In this document: positions 671-50,108 of the stretch, one piece after another
Layout: each line of letters starts with the position of its first letter
Position numbering within the stretch: the first letter of the stretch is position 1
Origin: Eubacteriales bacterium
GTDB lineage: Bacteria > Bacillota > Clostridia > Lachnospirales > Lachnospiraceae
Length of the DNA: 64,000 nucleotides
Direction of reading: 5' to 3'
Assembly: GCA_030536575.1 (NCBI GenBank)
Contig: JAUNPS010000006.1
Coordinates: 1-64,000, forward strand
The notes under the pieces: generated by a model
What the model was told of the DNA's origin: nothing
Database searches by the model: none
What the model saw: only the letters and a program-made list of their open reading frames with translations
Position numbers and translations under genes: made by a program

Positions 671-3082
671 CTACTTCACAACAAAATTCAAAATCTTCTT
701 CGGCACATAGATTTCCTTCACAACATTCCCAGAAAGCCGATCTCCCAGCGCTTCCTTCCCTTTCGCAATCGCATCCTCTTTCGCGATATCCACCGGAATC
801 CGGATCACCACTTTCGTCTTCCCGTTCATCTGCACCGGAACTTCCACTTCGTCATCCTTCATGGCCTCTTCGTCATGCTCCGGCCACTTGTTCGCAAAAA
901 CACTCTCCGTACCGCCCAGCTCCTGCCACAGCTCCTCGCTCAGATGCGGCGCAAACGGCGCCAGCAGGATTACCGCCGTCTTCAGCGTCTCCTTGTCAAT
1001 GCCGTCCTTTTTCGCCATCTCGATCATCTTGTTATTGTACTCCATGAAACCGGAAATGACAGTATTCAGGCTGAAGCTCTCCAGACGCTGGGTAATCACA
1101 TGCACCATCTTGTGGCGCAACTTCAGCATCTCCTTTGTCGGCTCCACATTCTTGTCCTTGTTCTCCATAACCAGATTCCAGAACTTGTTCAGGAAACGGT
1201 AAACGCCGTCGATCCCTCTGTCGTCCCATTCCGCATCCAGTTCCGGCGGCCCTACGAACAGCTCGTACATTCTCAGGGAGTCGCAGCCGTAATCGCGTAC
1301 CAGATCGTCCGGGGAAACCACGTTCCCTTTTGACTTACTCATCTTGATGCCGTTCTTTCCGGTGATCATCCCCTGGTTAAACAGCTTCTGGAACGGCTCG
1401 TCAAAATCGATCACGCCGATATCGTACAGGAATTTCGTATAGAAACGGGAATACAGCAGATGCAGCACCGCGTGCTCTACGCCGCCAATGTACATATCAA
1501 CCGGCAGGTATTTGTCCGCCTTTTCCTTGGAAACCAGCTCTTTATCGTTATGCGCATCCACATAACGCAGGAAATACCAGGAAGAACCTGCCCACTGAGG
1601 CATCGTGTTCGTCTCGCGCTTGGCATCTGCCCCGCATACCGGGCACTTGCAGTTTACCCAGTCCTCGATGGCAGCCAGCGGGGATTCACCGGTTCCAGTG
1701 GGTTCGTAGGACTCCACTTCCGGCAGGCGTAAGGGAAGCTCTTCTTCCGGCACCGGGACATTCCCGCACTTGGGACAATGGACGATCGGGATCGGCTCGC
1801 CCCAGTAACGCTGACGGGAGAATACCCAGTCGCGCAGCTTGTAGTTGGTGGTCTTCCGGCCGATTCCCATCTCTTCAATCATGGCCGGAGCTTCTTTTTT
1901 CATCATCTCGGACTGCTTTCCGTTCCAGTCGCCGGAATTGATCAGGACGCCGGAGGGCGCGCAGTAGGCCTCGGTCATATTTTCAATCTCTTTCCCGTCC
2001 TTGGAGATGACTTGGACGATCGGAAGGTTAAATTTCTTCGCAAATTCAAAGTCACGGTCGTCATGCGCCGGCACGCACATGATCGCTCCCGTACCGTAGT
2101 CAGCCAGCACGTAATCGGACAGCCAGATCGGGACTTTCTTCCCATTTAACGGATTGATCGCATAGCTTCCGGTAAAGACGCCGGTCTTCTCTTTATCCTG
2201 GAGGCGGTCGACATTCGACTTCATGGAAGAGTCGTAGATATATTTCTCTACGGCTTCTTTCGTCTCTTCGGTGGCCAGGCTGGAAGCCAGCGCGTGTTCC
2301 GGCGCCAGAACCATGAAGGTGGCTCCGTGCAGGGTATCCGGTCTGGTGGTGTAGACCGTGATCTTCTCGTCTCTTCCGTCAACCGGGAAGTCAACTTCCG
2401 CGCCGTAGGATTTTCCGATCCAGTCGGTCTGCATTTTCTTCACTTTTTCCGGCCAGTCCAGCTTATCCAGGTCGTTTAACAGACGGTCTGCGTATTTGGT
2501 GATGCGCAGCATCCACTGGCGCAGGTTTTTCTTGGTGACCGGGGTGCCGCAGCGCTCGCAGACGCCGTTTACCACTTCTTCGTTTGCAAGGCCGGTTTTA
2601 CAGGACGGGCACCAGTTGATCGGGAATTCTTTTTCGTAGGCCAGCCCTTCCTTGAACATTTTTACGAAAATCCACTGGGTCCATTTGTAGAAATTCGGAT
2701 CCGTGGTGTTGACTTCCATATCCCAATCGTAGATGGATGCGATTTCGTTGATCTGGCGCTTGATGTTGGCCACGTTTTCCGCGGTGGAAATGGCCGGGTG
2801 CTGGCCGGTCTTGATCGCATAGTTTTCCGCGGGCAGGCCGAATGCGTCCCAGCCCATGGGATGGATCAGGTAATAGCCCTGGAGCATTTTATAGCGGCTC
2901 CAGACGTCGGAAATGACATAGCCTCTCCAGTGCCCGACGTGAAGCCCGTTTCCGGACGGATAGGGGAACATGTCCAGACAGTAGTATTTGGGCTTTTTGC
3001 CGTCGTCTACATTCACCGGATGCTCTTCCCAGATTTTACGCCATTTTTGTTCGATTGCCTTATGGTTATAAGGAACTGCCAT
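671..3082 (-). CDS. leuS: Leucyl-tRNA synthetase
   Basis: Cytoplasmic class I aminoacyl-tRNA synthetase that charges tRNA-Leu with leucine. The 803-aa product has the HIGH-type motif as HVGH in YPSGNGLHVGHWRGY near residue 50. It has a central editing (CP1) domain with GTGAIMCVPAHDDRD, Cys-rich zinc-like segments (CPSCKTG, CPKCGN, CPVCG), the KMSKS loop in GIKMSKSKGNVVSP, and a C-terminal anticodon-binding region. Length fits bacterial LeuRS. The ATG at 3082 has an AGGAGGAG ribosome binding site. It is monocistronic, with its own sigma-A promoter and terminator. No T-box leader is present, although many Firmicute leuS genes have one. Confidence 0.97.
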   Translation of the reverse strand: MAVPYNHKAIEQKWRKIWEEHPVNVDDGKKPKYYCLDMFPYPSGNGLHVGHWRGYVISDVWSRYKMLQGYYLIHPMGWDAFGLPAENYAIKTGQHPAISTAENVANIKRQINEIASIYDWDMEVNTTDPNFYKWTQWIFVKMFKEGLAYEKEFPINWCPSCKTGLANEEVVNGVCERCGTPVTKKNLRQWMLRITKYADRLLNDLDKLDWPEKVKKMQTDWIGKSYGAEVDFPVDGRDEKITVYTTRPDTLHGATFMVLAPEHALASSLATEETKEAVEKYIYDSSMKSNVDRLQDKEKTGVFTGSYAINPLNGKKVPIWLSDYVLADYGTGAIMCVPAHDDRDFEFAKKFNLPIVQVISKDGKEIENMTEAYCAPSGVLINSGDWNGKQSEMMKKEAPAMIEEMGIGRKTTNYKLRDWVFSRQRYWGEPIPIVHCPKCGNVPVPEEELPLRLPEVESYEPTGTGESPLAAIEDWVNCKCPVCGADAKRETNTMPQWAGSSWYFLRYVDAHNDKELVSKEKADKYLPVDMYIGGVEHAVLHLLYSRFYTKFLYDIGVIDFDEPFQKLFNQGMITGKNGIKMSKSKGNVVSPDDLVRDYGCDSLRMYELFVGPPELDAEWDDRGIDGVYRFLNKFWNLVMENKDKNVEPTKEMLKLRHKMVHVITQRLESFSLNTVISGFMEYNNKMIEMAKKDGIDKETLKTAVILLAPFAPHLSEELWQELGGTESVFANKWPEHDEEAMKDDEVEVPVQMNGKTKVVIRIPVDIAKEDAIAKGKEALGDRLSGNVVKEIYVPKKILNFVVK

Positions 3083-3168: not shown

Positions 3169-3207
3169 TAGATGGCGCTGTTCCTTTGCGTTTTTCTGTG
3201 TTATACT

Positions 3208-3500
3208 GGTTATTGTTCACACCGCCAGCTTTTCTGGTCTTTAACCACTGTGACATAACCGAACGTCACCGTGCCGCCGAAAACCTTCCGGGGAACGGGG
3301 CAACGTCATCGTCAAGCTTCCTCTAACTGCGACTAGGACGCTCAGGAATGCCTTCGCGCCCAAGTCTTAGTAAGAGGTGATCTTGACTCTTCCTAAGTGC
3401 GCCCCTCGAAACACGTCCCCGGAAGATTTCCGACTCCCCGGTAACTGGATATAGAAGACTGGGAAGTATCCCAAAGCTGGCGTAGGTGTGAACTGTAACC
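3208..3500 (+). repeat. Structured inverted-repeat element, copy A (MITE-like)
   Basis: A 293-bp element bounded by 15-bp imperfect terminal inverted repeats (left GGTTATTGTTCACAC; right end, reverse-complemented, GGTTACAGTTCACAC). By eye it is about 88% identical to copy B at 48183-48477, which lies in the opposite orientation. The flanks TATACT (3202-3207) and TATACC (3501-3506) look like a slightly decayed 6-bp target duplication. The inside is rich in nested stems, for example CTTCCGGGG (3285-3293) with CCCCGGAAG (3417-3425), and ACTAGGAC (3332-3339) with GTCTTAGT (3364-3371, one G-U wobble). No plausible protein is encoded. It fills most of the 3083-3543 gap, leaving only about 30 bp before the ribosome binding site of the next gene. 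Confidence 0.85.
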
Positions 3501-3543
3501 TATACCTCGTTCCAATAACATTTTCGAAAGGACCTTTCACTCT

Positions 3544-4188
3544 ATGAAGCAAAAAAAATTAACACCTGCCAATCTGCTCCTCGGCCTCCTTGGAACGCTT
3601 TTTCTCCTCTCCCTGTGCGTCACGCTGACACTGAACGCCCGTTTTCTGTATTATCAGGATCTGGATGCGCTCTCCCAGGAAAGCGGGCTGCCCGCAGAAG
3701 AAATCAGGGCAAACTATGATGCCCTGATCGACTATAATTCCATGTTTTTCCATGGGGAACTTTCCTTCCCCACCCTCCCAATGTCCGAGCACGGCCAGAT
3801 CCATTTTGAAGAGGTAAAGCAGATTTTCGTCTTTTTGCAGTACGCCTGCATTATTTCCGGAATCCTGTTCCTGAGCGGCGCATGGCTGCAGCTTCGTAAA
3901 AAACGCTATGGCTTCCTTTTTACCACCTGGGTCATCAGCACGGTTTTCCCGCTTCTGGTCGGCCTGCTGGCCGCTCTCAACTGGGATTGGTTTTTCGTCG
4001 CCTTTCACCATCTCCTGTTCCGGAATGATTACTGGCTGTTCGACCCTGCCACCGACCCGATCATCGATCTGCTTCCGGACAGCTATTTCTTCCGCTGCCT
4101 CGTGGTCATCGCCGTCCTGATGGTCGTTCTCACCCAGGGCTGCGGCCTTCTCTACCGCCGTTTTGCGAAAAAGAAGCCTACGCCTTAA
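3544..4188 (+). CDS. TIGR01906/DUF1461 family integral membrane protein
   Basis: A 214-aa protein with four hydrophobic segments, at about residues 10-30, 95-115, 125-150 and 180-205. A short extracytoplasmic stretch, with YNSMFFHGELSFPTLPMSEHGQIHFEEV between segments 1 and 2, is typical of the TIGR01906 (DUF1461) family common in Clostridia and lactobacilli. Molecular function is unknown. The ATG is preceded by GAAAGGA. Because repeat copy A ends at 3500, any promoter must lie in the element's right end or in the 30 bp after it. It converges tail to tail with the VanY-type gene, one base apart. Confidence 0.8.
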   Translation: MKQKKLTPANLLLGLLGTLFLLSLCVTLTLNARFLYYQDLDALSQESGLPAEEIRANYDALIDYNSMFFHGELSFPTLPMSEHGQIHFEEVKQIFVFLQYACIISGILFLSGAWLQLRKKRYGFLFTTWVISTVFPLLVGLLAALNWDWFFVAFHHLLFRNDYWLFDPATDPIIDLLPDSYFFRCLVVIAVLMVVLTQGCGLLYRRFAKKKPTP

Positions 4189-8397: not shown

Positions 8398-8468
8398 AAC
8401 GCCCTCTCCGGGTTTACGGAAAGGGCGTTACTGTTCACTCGTATCTGAGCAGCGAAGTGCTCAGGTAC
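8398..8468 (-). terminator. Two consecutive hairpins between secDF and recJ
   Basis: The 8398-8429 hairpin (AACGCCC/GGGCGTT with an A+T loop) is followed on the minus strand by CGTTTTAT and resembles a weak terminator. A second near-palindrome at 8441-8468 (CTGAGCA ... TGCTCAG) precedes it. Together they probably reduce read-through from secDF into recJ or stabilise the upstream mRNA end. Confidence 0.5.
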
Positions 8469-8499
8469 TGTCTGAATCGTAACGAAAGGGTGTGACCAT

Positions 8500-48152: not shown

Positions 48153-48184
48153 CAAAAATCCCCTGAAGCCGCCGCCTCAGGGGG
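48153..48184 (-). terminator. Terminator of the GH1 operon, displaced by repeat copy B
   Basis: On the minus strand CCCCTGAGG ... CTTCAGGGG followed by ATTTTTG. The left arm also occurs at the GH1 stop codon (48476-48484). The element therefore appears to have entered this stem, with the duplicated target restoring the hairpin about 300 bp away from the gene end. Confidence 0.7.
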
Positions 48185-48477
48185 ATACAGTTCACACCTA
48201 TGCCAGCCTTCTGGAACTTCCCTGTCATCTATATACAGTTACCGGGAAGTCGGAAATCTTCCGGGGACGTGTTTCGAGGGGCGCATTTAGGAAGAGTCGA
48301 AATCGCCCCTTACTAAGACTTAGGCGCGAAGGCTCTCCTGAGCGTCTTAGTCGCAGTTAGGGGAAGTTTGACGATGACGTTGCCCCGTTCCCCGGAAGGT
48401 TTTCGACAGCACGGTGACGTTCGATCATACCACAGTGGTTAAAAACTAGAAAGGCTGGCGATGTGTGAACTGTAACC
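48183..48477 (-). repeat. Structured inverted-repeat element, copy B (MITE-like)
   Basis: A 295-bp element, opposite in orientation to copy A and about 88% identical by eye. Terminal inverted repeats GGATACAGTTCACAC (left) and GGTTACAGTTCACAC (right end, reverse-complemented) match at 14 of 15. It is flanked by the perfect 6-bp duplication TCAGGG (48177-48182 and 48478-48483); the repeat can be read as 9 bp (CCTCAGGGG) if the ends are set differently. The internal stems seen in copy A are conserved and here fully Watson-Crick (ACTAAGAC/GTCTTAGT; GGGGCG/CGCCCC). The element starts directly after the GH1 stop codon. No coding capacity. Confidence 0.9.
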
Positions 48478-49821
48478 TCAGGGGATCGTAAATCCATTTT
48501 CCCGGATCACGCGGGCATACCAGCCAGCGCTCTTTTTGGGAATGCGTTTCCCTGTTTGGTAATCCGTATAGTGAAGGCCATAGCGCAGGGAGAACCCGGC
48601 CGACCATTCGAAATTGTCCATCAAAGACCACAAATAGTACCCTTTCACGGGAATGCCGTCCGCAATCGCCTGATGAACCGCGATCAGAACCTGCTCCACA
48701 TAGGCAATCCGTTCCCGGTCGTCCAACACCTCCTCCAGCGGCCCGTCCTCCTGGGGCAGCCCGTTTTCCGTAATATAAATCGGAATCTGAATCCGGTACT
48801 TCTCCACCAGCATATGTAAAACGTCGCGAACCGCTTCCGGATGCTGCTTCGGCTGATCCTGATAATTCCCGCCCGCCTTTAACACCGCCTCTTTCTTCCG
48901 GATTTCCTCCGCATTGTCGTAAAGGCCATTGTAAAAATTCAGGCCGTAAAAATCCAGCGGCTGGCGCATCGTCTCAAAATCCCCCTCTTCCATCTGGGGA
49001 ACCATTCCATTCTTCTCCAGATAGGCGTTCAGCTCCTCCGAATAGCCGCCCAGGAACAACGGATGGAGGAACATCCCATAGCCCGCAATCTCATTGTTAA
49101 AGACCGCGTAAGCTTCATCCTCCGCATTGCCCGGCCTGTCCGGATAATGCTTCCAGACGTCCACCACAATCCCGATTTTCGCCTTGGAAAATCCATATGT
49201 CCGGAACAGCTTCACCGCCTCCCCGTGACAGAGCAGCAGATGATGCAGGCACTGACGGGCGTATTTCTCATTTTTCAGACCAGGTGCGAAAAATCCATAG
49301 GCATGTCCCACATACAGGGCAATGGGCTCGTTAAACGTCACCCAGAAATCCACATCCTCGCCGAAATTGTCCAGCAAAACTTTCGCATAATGCGTAAACC
49401 ACGAAATACAGTCCCGGTTCCCGAATCCTCCCTGAATCTGAAGGGCGTAGGGAAGATCCCAATGGTACATCGTCGCATTCGGCACAATGCCGTTTTCCTT
49501 CAGCGCGGCGATCAGCCGTTTGTAATACTGAATCCCCGCCGGATTCACCTCCCCGGTTCCGTCCGGGATGATCCGCGACCAGGAAAACGAAAAACGGTAA
49601 GTTTTCAGCCCCAGTGCCTTCATCGCCTCGATATCTTTTTCATAAAGATGATAGGAATCGCAGGAAATATCCGGCAGATCGCCGTTTTTAATTTTTCCGG
49701 GAATCCGTGAAAACACATCCCAGATGGAAGGCTCTCTCCCGTCCTCGAAAGCTCCTCCTTCAATCTGCGCCGCCGCGGTGGCCGCGCCCCAAAGGAAGTC
49801 TTTTGGAAATGTATATTGCAT
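48478..49821 (-). CDS. GH1 beta-glucosidase / 6-phospho-beta-glucosidase-type enzyme
   Basis: Retaining beta-glycosidase, 447 aa, cytoplasmic. Starts FPKDFLWGAATAAAQIEGG. The acid/base Glu is in VTFNEPIALYVGH (near residue 164), the nucleophile Glu is in IYITENGLPQ (near residue 352), and SLMDNFEWSAGFSLRYGL follows. The binding-protein-type transporter in the operon, rather than a PTS, argues for a non-phosphorylated substrate. ATG 49821 has AAAGGAG upstream; the frame to 49842 does not. It is the last gene of the second glycan locus, with the stop codon inside the original terminator stem. Confidence 0.93.
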   Translation of the reverse strand: MQYTFPKDFLWGAATAAAQIEGGAFEDGREPSIWDVFSRIPGKIKNGDLPDISCDSYHLYEKDIEAMKALGLKTYRFSFSWSRIIPDGTGEVNPAGIQYYKRLIAALKENGIVPNATMYHWDLPYALQIQGGFGNRDCISWFTHYAKVLLDNFGEDVDFWVTFNEPIALYVGHAYGFFAPGLKNEKYARQCLHHLLLCHGEAVKLFRTYGFSKAKIGIVVDVWKHYPDRPGNAEDEAYAVFNNEIAGYGMFLHPLFLGGYSEELNAYLEKNGMVPQMEEGDFETMRQPLDFYGLNFYNGLYDNAEEIRKKEAVLKAGGNYQDQPKQHPEAVRDVLHMLVEKYRIQIPIYITENGLPQEDGPLEEVLDDRERIAYVEQVLIAVHQAIADGIPVKGYYLWSLMDNFEWSAGFSLRYGLHYTDYQTGKRIPKKSAGWYARVIRENGFTIP

Positions 49822-49838
49822 TGCAGTCACTCCTTTCG

Positions 49839-50108
49839 TCAAATCGTCGTAAACTGGCTCTCTGTCCAGGCTCCCACGCCGCTTCGCACCCGCCAGTAAT
49901 AGGTCTTTCCGGATTTCAGCGGAAACCCGTCATAGACGCAGTAAGGGTTCCGCGTATCCAGATACATCACCGCTTCGCGAAATCCCGGCTCTGCGGACAT
50001 CTGAACCGTAAACTGCCGCTCCCCTTCCGCTTCCCAGGAAAACACCGGAGAGACCGCCGGAACACCCTGGGGGCTCCGCAGCCCATTGACCTTCAAATCT
50101 GTAATCAT
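49839..50108 (-). CDS. Free-standing 89-aa fibronectin/rhamnosidase-N-like domain protein
   Basis: A small protein that starts with an ATG overlapping the GH43 stop (ATGA) and ends 17 nt before the GH1 start. Its sequence (LKVNGLRSPQGVP, PVFSWEAEGERQFTVQM, GKTYYWRVRSGVGAWTESQF) resembles the N-terminal domain of GH78 rhamnosidases: the same PVF.W opening and YYW.V near the end occur in the GH78 protein of this window. It has no catalytic barrel, signal peptide or membrane segment. It is tightly coupled to its neighbours, so a real gene is likely. It may be a remnant of a lost GH78 gene or a docking or binding subunit. Confidence 0.75.
   Translation of the reverse strand: MITDLKVNGLRSPQGVPAVSPVFSWEAEGERQFTVQMSAEPGFREAVMYLDTRNPYCVYDGFPLKSGKTYYWRVRSGVGAWTESQFTTI

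Follow-up and report, generated by a model that had tools for sequence, protein, structure and literature searches.

A MITE family with a folded core in Lachnospiraceae

The window analysed here, a stretch of 64,000 nucleotides of Lachnospiraceae DNA, holds two related copies of a short element, which raises the question of how these copies came to their present places and what the folded sequence inside them is. Copy A (plus strand, 3209-3499, 291 bp) lies between the long ORFs 671-3082 (minus) and 3544-4188 (plus). Copy B (minus strand, 48184-48476, 293 bp) follows immediately after the stop codon of ORF 48478-49842 (minus). Over 295 aligned bases they are 88.1% identical, which confirms the value of ~88% given in a preliminary description of this locus.

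Ends, target duplications and copies in the host genome

Inverted ends had been described for both copies and were recovered on both by an end-pattern scan, but they start with GTTAC instead of GGTTAC and are 14 bp long by the pattern. In copy A they are GTTATTGTTCACAC (3209-3222, plus) and GTTACAGTTCACAC (3486-3499, minus), in copy B GTTACAGTTCACAC (48463-48476, minus) and GATACAGTTCACAC (48184-48197, plus). Scanning the window with the pattern GTTACWGTTCACNC and ≤2 mismatches gave 5 matches versus 1.37 expected, a number reached in 1 of 100 shuffles. Four matches are the ends of A and B. The fifth is part of a third element (8427-8483, plus, 57 bp), which has these ends but no core and whose flanks GAAAGGGC and GAAAGGGT agree at 7 of 8 positions. 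This element, with its near-perfect duplication, looks like a shortened relative of a 142-bp MITE described below.

Copy B is flanked by a perfect direct repeat (8/8) of 8 bp, CTCAGGGG, at 48176-48183 and 48477-48484. The repeat TCAGGG reported earlier was correctly seen as perfect but is only a part of it. The flanks of copy A, TTATACTG (3201-3208) and CTATACCT (3500-3507), form a decayed 8-bp repeat that had been called near-perfect; they agree at only 5 of 8 positions and are by themselves no proof of a duplication. As to its length, previously given as 6 bp, exact flanking direct repeats were counted at 48 candidate end pairs, which include overlapping pairings. They were found at 12 pairs for 8 bp, at 2 for 6 bp and at none for 7 or 9 bp, which favours 8 bp; a duplication of at least 7/8 is present at 20 of the 48.

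The host assembly (G000) comprises 4.81 Mb in 100 contigs and is 90.7% complete. The search of the whole assembly with the element, suggested in the preliminary description, returned 47 matches at at least 40 places (40 of 77 first-look candidates were scored). Several contigs start or stop within a copy, and one extra copy (L181) was located via its ends. Among the best 30 matches in the assembly, 13 do not span both ends, although 5 of those 13 still have recognisable ends; other host copies consist of the inner part only. The end GTTACAGTTCACAC occurs 168 times in the assembly with ≤2 mismatches compared to 14 times for the reversed control. About 100 of these places were listed, and many of the listed matches are ends of a second MITE, which is 142 bp long and has no core. 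This MITE (L182-L188 and L013 of G000) carries the ends GTTACTGTTCACTC/GTTACTGTTCAGAC, and its duplications agree at 7 or 8 of 8 positions in 8 of 9 fetched copies, suggesting recent activity.

Counting one pairing per place, fetched elements bounded on both sides were divided into 23 with the core motif and 13 without. A duplication of at least 7/8 flanks 10 of the 23 core-bearing elements (shuffled flanks: mean 0.42, maximum 4) and 10 of the 13 core-less ones (mean 0.79, maximum 8). No clear duplication is seen at 13 of the 23 core-bearing copies. Eleven of the 13 core-less elements measure 123-142 bp, and those of 187 and 265 bp resemble shortened or interrupted core copies. Across 150 genomes of the family, an extended end pattern matched in 6, namely 20 times in the own genome, 8 times in G107 and once in each of four others. 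The four single matches may be due to chance, since the reversed control also gave 3 single matches.

Filled and empty sites were compared for copy A. In the same-genus genome G001 both flanks are present, the interval is 277 bases shorter and the element is absent. This orthologous empty site is one site in one genome, the left flank in G002 being located at a contig end. A short stretch resembling the terminal inverted repeat (TIR), GTTACCATTCACA, is found at the G001 site, so that it may have had another visitor and not be virgin.

Taken together, terminal inverted repeats, a duplication with a constant length of 8 bp and absence from an orthologous site, three features by which a MITE is recognised, are observed. 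Copies A and B are too short for any transposase, most of each being folded core. This agrees with the earlier claim that none is encoded and that the elements are moved in trans, for which the many copies, the duplications and the empty site also speak. The data therefore support that the window copies and their family are MITEs, i.e. mobile, structured and non-autonomous elements moved in trans; the observed support for this part consists of the ends, the 8-bp duplications, the copy number and the one empty site. A DDE-type transposase acting in trans would cut at the GTTACWGTTCACAC ends, and an 8-bp staggered cut at insertion would give rise to the 8-bp duplications.

Candidate mobilising enzymes

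An autonomous IS with the same ends had been proposed as the source of such an enzyme, yet no transposase with these ends was found among the families searched. IS256 (PF00872) has no match in the own genome. It has matches in 12 of 17 other genomes, and of 30 loci fetched from there none is framed by these ends, so an IS256-family mobiliser was discarded for lack of a locus with matching ends. The single DDE_Tnp_1 (PF01609) gene of the own genome belongs to the ISAs1 family and has other ends. UPF0236 (PF06782) gave no match in the own genome, and neither did its positive control.

The IS4 family required closer consideration. An IS4-family element of G107 (L255) shows perfect 20-bp inverted ends with flanks agreeing at 7 of 8 positions; its protein has no match in the own genome versus 59 of 397 family genomes. 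Among 30 IS4-family loci (L255/L261, NF033592), three (L261, L273, L280) have GTTACTRTTCAC-like inverted repeats at either side. L255/L261, L273 and L280 were seen to be framed without the usual repeat of ~10 bp. The usual ends of the family are CAATGTCATTWAGTTA with repeats of about 10 bp, and the aligned MITEs are without such sequence. At six loci (L262, L263, L264, L265, L266, L271) IS4-family insertions with repeats of about 10 bp are located in GTTACTGTTCAC-like ends. Apparently IS4-family elements prefer the ends of another transposon as insertion sites. An IS4-family mobiliser is doubtful, as relatives end at CAATGTCATT with repeats of about 10 bp and 6 of the 30 loci resemble insertions into TIRs. 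The IS4-family elements of G107 and other genomes that are located in or between these ends may be either parasites of the ends or their source.

Structure and distribution of the folded core

The core has a length of ~185 nt and spans 3261-3447 (plus; GAACG...ACTG, outer limits by eye comparison) in copy A and 48236-48422 (minus) in copy B. Covariance model R1 matches 3293-3416 with 139.8 bits and 48267-48390 with 140.7 bits, respectively. The fold was derived from an alignment of 20 sequences, 12 from the host genome and 8 from G028 and G059, which weak matches in two other genera had enabled. RNAalifold predicts a rod with 28 pairs. In a named structure of 30 pairs, 95.8% of the cells are paired and 19 of the 30 pairs show double changes. 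Its covariation is 0.380 versus 0.158 in shuffled alignments, with 0 of 500 shuffles as high. The same holds for four of five measures, while the fifth (number of further pair types) was equalled in 349 of 500. When partners were slid, pairing fell to 35-52%, a comparison in which the 30-pair structure has an advantage because it was derived from the same alignment.

Rfam 15 yielded nothing at gathering threshold in the window. Four matches of the long form L048 are at chance level, far below the gathering score (E 0.56-1.6), and a known Rfam family as the identity of the core was rejected as no match was credible. Long copies (about 430 bp) are extended by as many as three modules, whose insertion places are fixed. 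Such optional inner modules occur in L048, L181, L013, L019, L040, L042, L046 and L047, and the module motif CCTGCCACTGGCAGCT recurs in L335 and L346, elements that come from two further genomes.

Unpaired columns are conserved as well, including columns outside the stretch used for pattern scanning. Within the copies inspected, to which this statement is limited, RCTA...GGAT is kept, as judged by eye, by 16 out of 18 copies, one from each of 18 genomes. The window copies are variant at two motifs, with AAACTT or AAGCTT...(C/T)GAT and not the GAACTA...GGAT of other genera. Covarying helices together with conserved unpaired motifs, as called for in a structured RNA, are observed.

To follow the core beyond the host, model R1 was applied to 98 nearest relatives including the own genome, three of which have the core (G000 35, G028 20 and G059 8 matches). 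In a draw from the whole family it was found in 29 of 397 genomes and 28 of 334 genera, own included. Seventeen of the 29 have two or more matches, and two genomes were positive only at E about 5e-6. This search scored at most 8 candidates per genome under strict filters and is without pattern-selection bias. Loci L079-L158, on the other hand, are 80 listed of at least 102 stretches from a pattern scan of named genomes, and since they were picked by that pattern, the columns within it are conserved by choice of data. The titles of the 80 listed loci read Lachnospiraceae, Dorea, Blautia, Lachnotalea or, less precisely, Clostridiaceae, Clostridiales, Clostridia or Eubacteriales. Two carriers have species names, Blautia schinkii and B. 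parvula; their core matches are partial. On one contig (G374:C6, 20206-65280) a short and divergent core variant is present six times within 45 kb.

Of 103 model matches, 85 are in the hit list and 80 have flanks long enough for a scan for TIRs plus duplication; 74 were used for counts of neighbour genes and orientation, and 73 were kept for the statistics on wobble pairs, unpaired columns and nearest neighbours. The largest protein clusters near the 74 copies cover 10 and 6 loci and by eye resemble ABC transporters and a membrane sensor protein. A conserved partner gene was rejected, no neighbour gene being widely common to the 74 copies. Twelve of them share more than 60 bases with a predicted ORF. 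Relative to their neighbours, 24 copies are oriented same/same, 19 opposite/opposite and 10 and 7 mixed, while 14 lack a neighbouring ORF on at least one side within the stretch considered. Viral contigs gave 0 matches for four patterns, three of them core patterns. Copy A has no match in phages, and neither copy A nor L112 has one in plasmids; a phage origin was dismissed on the viral-contig and phage results.

How far the core depends on the MITE ends was judged from its frames. Copies extending beyond the proposed ends, or a lack of duplications at other insertions, had been named beforehand as arguing against the element as described. Related cores without recognisable such ends do exist in the host genome and in others, whereas duplications do recur elsewhere. 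The scan for TIRs plus duplication found frames at 6 of 80 core copies of named genomes (null 1.3). Two were judged convincing, with no convincing frame at the other 78. In L079, which comes from an uncultured Dorea, the core is bounded by ends of the same type and an 8/8 duplication is present, CAGTAATC. L121 carries the core between ends of another kind, CYACCTGTACGGTT, and its duplication AAAGTTTT is likewise 8/8. Hence ends and folded core are separable, as cores occur without these ends and, in at least one case (L121), between other ends that are flanked by an 8-bp duplication. In the host genome one such core seems to have come to lie between MITE ends and would then have been amplified to at least 40 places.

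Maintenance of the fold and origin of the arms

Structured RNA is expected to tolerate G-U far more than A-C on one strand. Among 2169 pair cells there are 42 G-U and 31 A-C, i.e. no strand bias of wobble pairs and no one-strand excess of G-U as expected of a structured RNA; that expectation is taken from general knowledge and not from a measured control RNA. In 49 nearest-neighbour pairs we counted 76 double Watson-Crick changes and 11 other double changes, next to 77 single changes (24 G-T, 29 A-C, 24 other). Such counts weigh against a simple RNA interpretation, and the mixed orientation to neighbouring genes lends RNA function no support. As G-U and A-C are about equally rare, maintenance at the DNA level is as possible as RNA function. 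The core might then be a palindrome without function that is kept paired by DNA replication, template switching copying arm onto arm so that double changes arise without selection. Template switching in replication is reported to create and maintain perfect stems (PMC8794818). Double Watson-Crick changes that match all single changes in number even between nearest neighbours, as well as the similar counts of G-T and A-C singles, would suit this reading, which we consider possible but rather unlikely. It leaves unexplained why unpaired motifs stay constant between genera beside variable helices. These motifs, common to several genera, favour a functional fold, and the composition of unpaired positions (35% A and 24% U in plus reading) is a mild hint towards the plus strand. 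Our model, held with about even confidence, is that the fold serves as a scaffold, most probably in the form of a structured RNA. RNA use of the scaffold and template switching are probably both at work.

Outside the core lies an arm that in many copies is bounded by GGACG and CTG. Of 114 items 77 passed the filter; their arm length is 30-38 bp in 46 and above 70 bp in five. The self-pairing score of the arm reaches at least 0.7 in 67 of 109 copies and in none with swapped right flanks. Arms that are well paired yet free in sequence and occasionally very long would also fit the functionless palindrome. Arms were compared in 66 pairs whose flanks are unlike and whose cores have an identity of 0.90 or more. 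Arm identity falls within the range of random arms (≤0.65, with a mean of 0.54 for random ones) in 35 of them, and in 47 if only the outer 18 arm bases are regarded, most of which do not belong to the conserved inner stem. Like-flank pairs are in this range in 12 of 30 cases, so the flank criterion for orthology is noisy. Arms often vary between near-identical cores. Genome G142 has two copies, L337 and L338, with 98% of the core in common and an arm identity of 0.46. In the one clear orthologous pair, L338/L345, the element is conserved to the same degree as its flanks (95-97%), indicating that arms are not fast-changing at that fixed locus. The arms of L324 (G028:C44) and L328 (G028:C71) are 120 and 77 bp long with sides 96-97% identical and represent long natural palindromes. 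In L112 (6628-6750) the two arms fail to match for a few bases, the right one being that of L080; by eye this is a possible recombinant between copies.

These differing arms between GGACG...CTG-like termini, together with the patchy multi-copy distribution often outside TIR frames, the missing strand bias of wobble pairs and the pair L337/L338, would suit a core that without TIRs is itself mobile as a single-stranded DNA hairpin and acquires a new arm per locus, the DDE ends being secondary. We regard this as quite unlikely. No enzyme stands beside the core, any boundary or target site would be putative, and many copies seem old: cores of G028 average 71% identity over 12 copies, so that arms may have drifted slowly with compensation. 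A somewhat broader version, still unlikely but less so, would make the core an unrecognised class of element, in which a scaffold has its outer self-complementary arm remade at each new locus, spreads in Lachnospiraceae by a non-DDE route and is secondarily carried by MITEs.

A common scaffold with differing arms, mostly of 30-38 bp, also calls to mind a scaffold RNA whose private arm acts as guide duplex toward other nucleic acids. This is highly improbable in view of the arm searches. Fifteen G028 arms have no match above shuffled arms in 1.23 of about 3.8 Mb of that genome, two long arms have no phage match and one no plasmid match, and the three core patterns are without match in viral contigs. 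Within the own locus, the longest arm match has a mean of 9.4 bases compared to 8.8 for shuffled arms; 4 of 74 reach 14-15 (shuffled maximum 13). A 14-base arm match was found for L138. That arms are copied from or aimed at host genes was not supported by the locus and 1.23-Mb G028 comparisons and was rejected.

Overall, we consider it likely that MITEs mobilised in trans carry a folded core that may be used as a scaffold. The payload would be a stem-loop core of ~185 nt related to an older family of cores dispersed in Lachnospiraceae, often without such ends. It would form a long rod in which an outer arm of free sequence is followed by short helices split by conserved unpaired motifs, and the pairing of helices and arm is probably aided by template-switch correction in DNA replication. 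The family adds a large group of repeats to the Lachnospiraceae, a major gut group, and provides a working covariance model (R1). Moreover, it offers a natural test of covarying stems as proof of RNA function versus replication errors in DNA palindromes, for which variable helices, conserved loops, many loci per genome and some orthologous copies can be used.

ERIC of enterobacteria has the anatomy of a hairpin. Like the core described here it is an intergenic repeat with variable copy number (PMC10969869); it is likened by plan and not by sequence, and ends with 8-bp duplications are shown for the window family. In the Lachnospiraceae literature under open licence on MITEs, structured RNA and palindromic repeats, as far as it was accessible, no such element is described, which is weak evidence of absence. 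The main text of a MITE review has no mention of 'Clostrid' or 'Lachnosp' (PMC10969869). With MITEs in general, as characterised there, our family shares the short length, the lack of a transposase gene, inverted ends, target duplications, many copies, a mostly intergenic location and hairpin formation, but unlike them it carries a core with relatives in 28 genera, also without these ends. BOX of Streptococcus pneumoniae, according to the part of its description considered (PMC3049150), is alike in being a modular intergenic repeat with TIRs, target duplications, a strong predicted RNA fold and optional inner modules. It is reported there mainly from pneumococcus and S. mitis, while S. suis has a BOX-like set. 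The differing self-paired arms are a feature of our family absent from that description, and the two are again likened by plan. By analogy, the element thus appears in plan to be a MITE, closest in style to BOX, and to ERIC.
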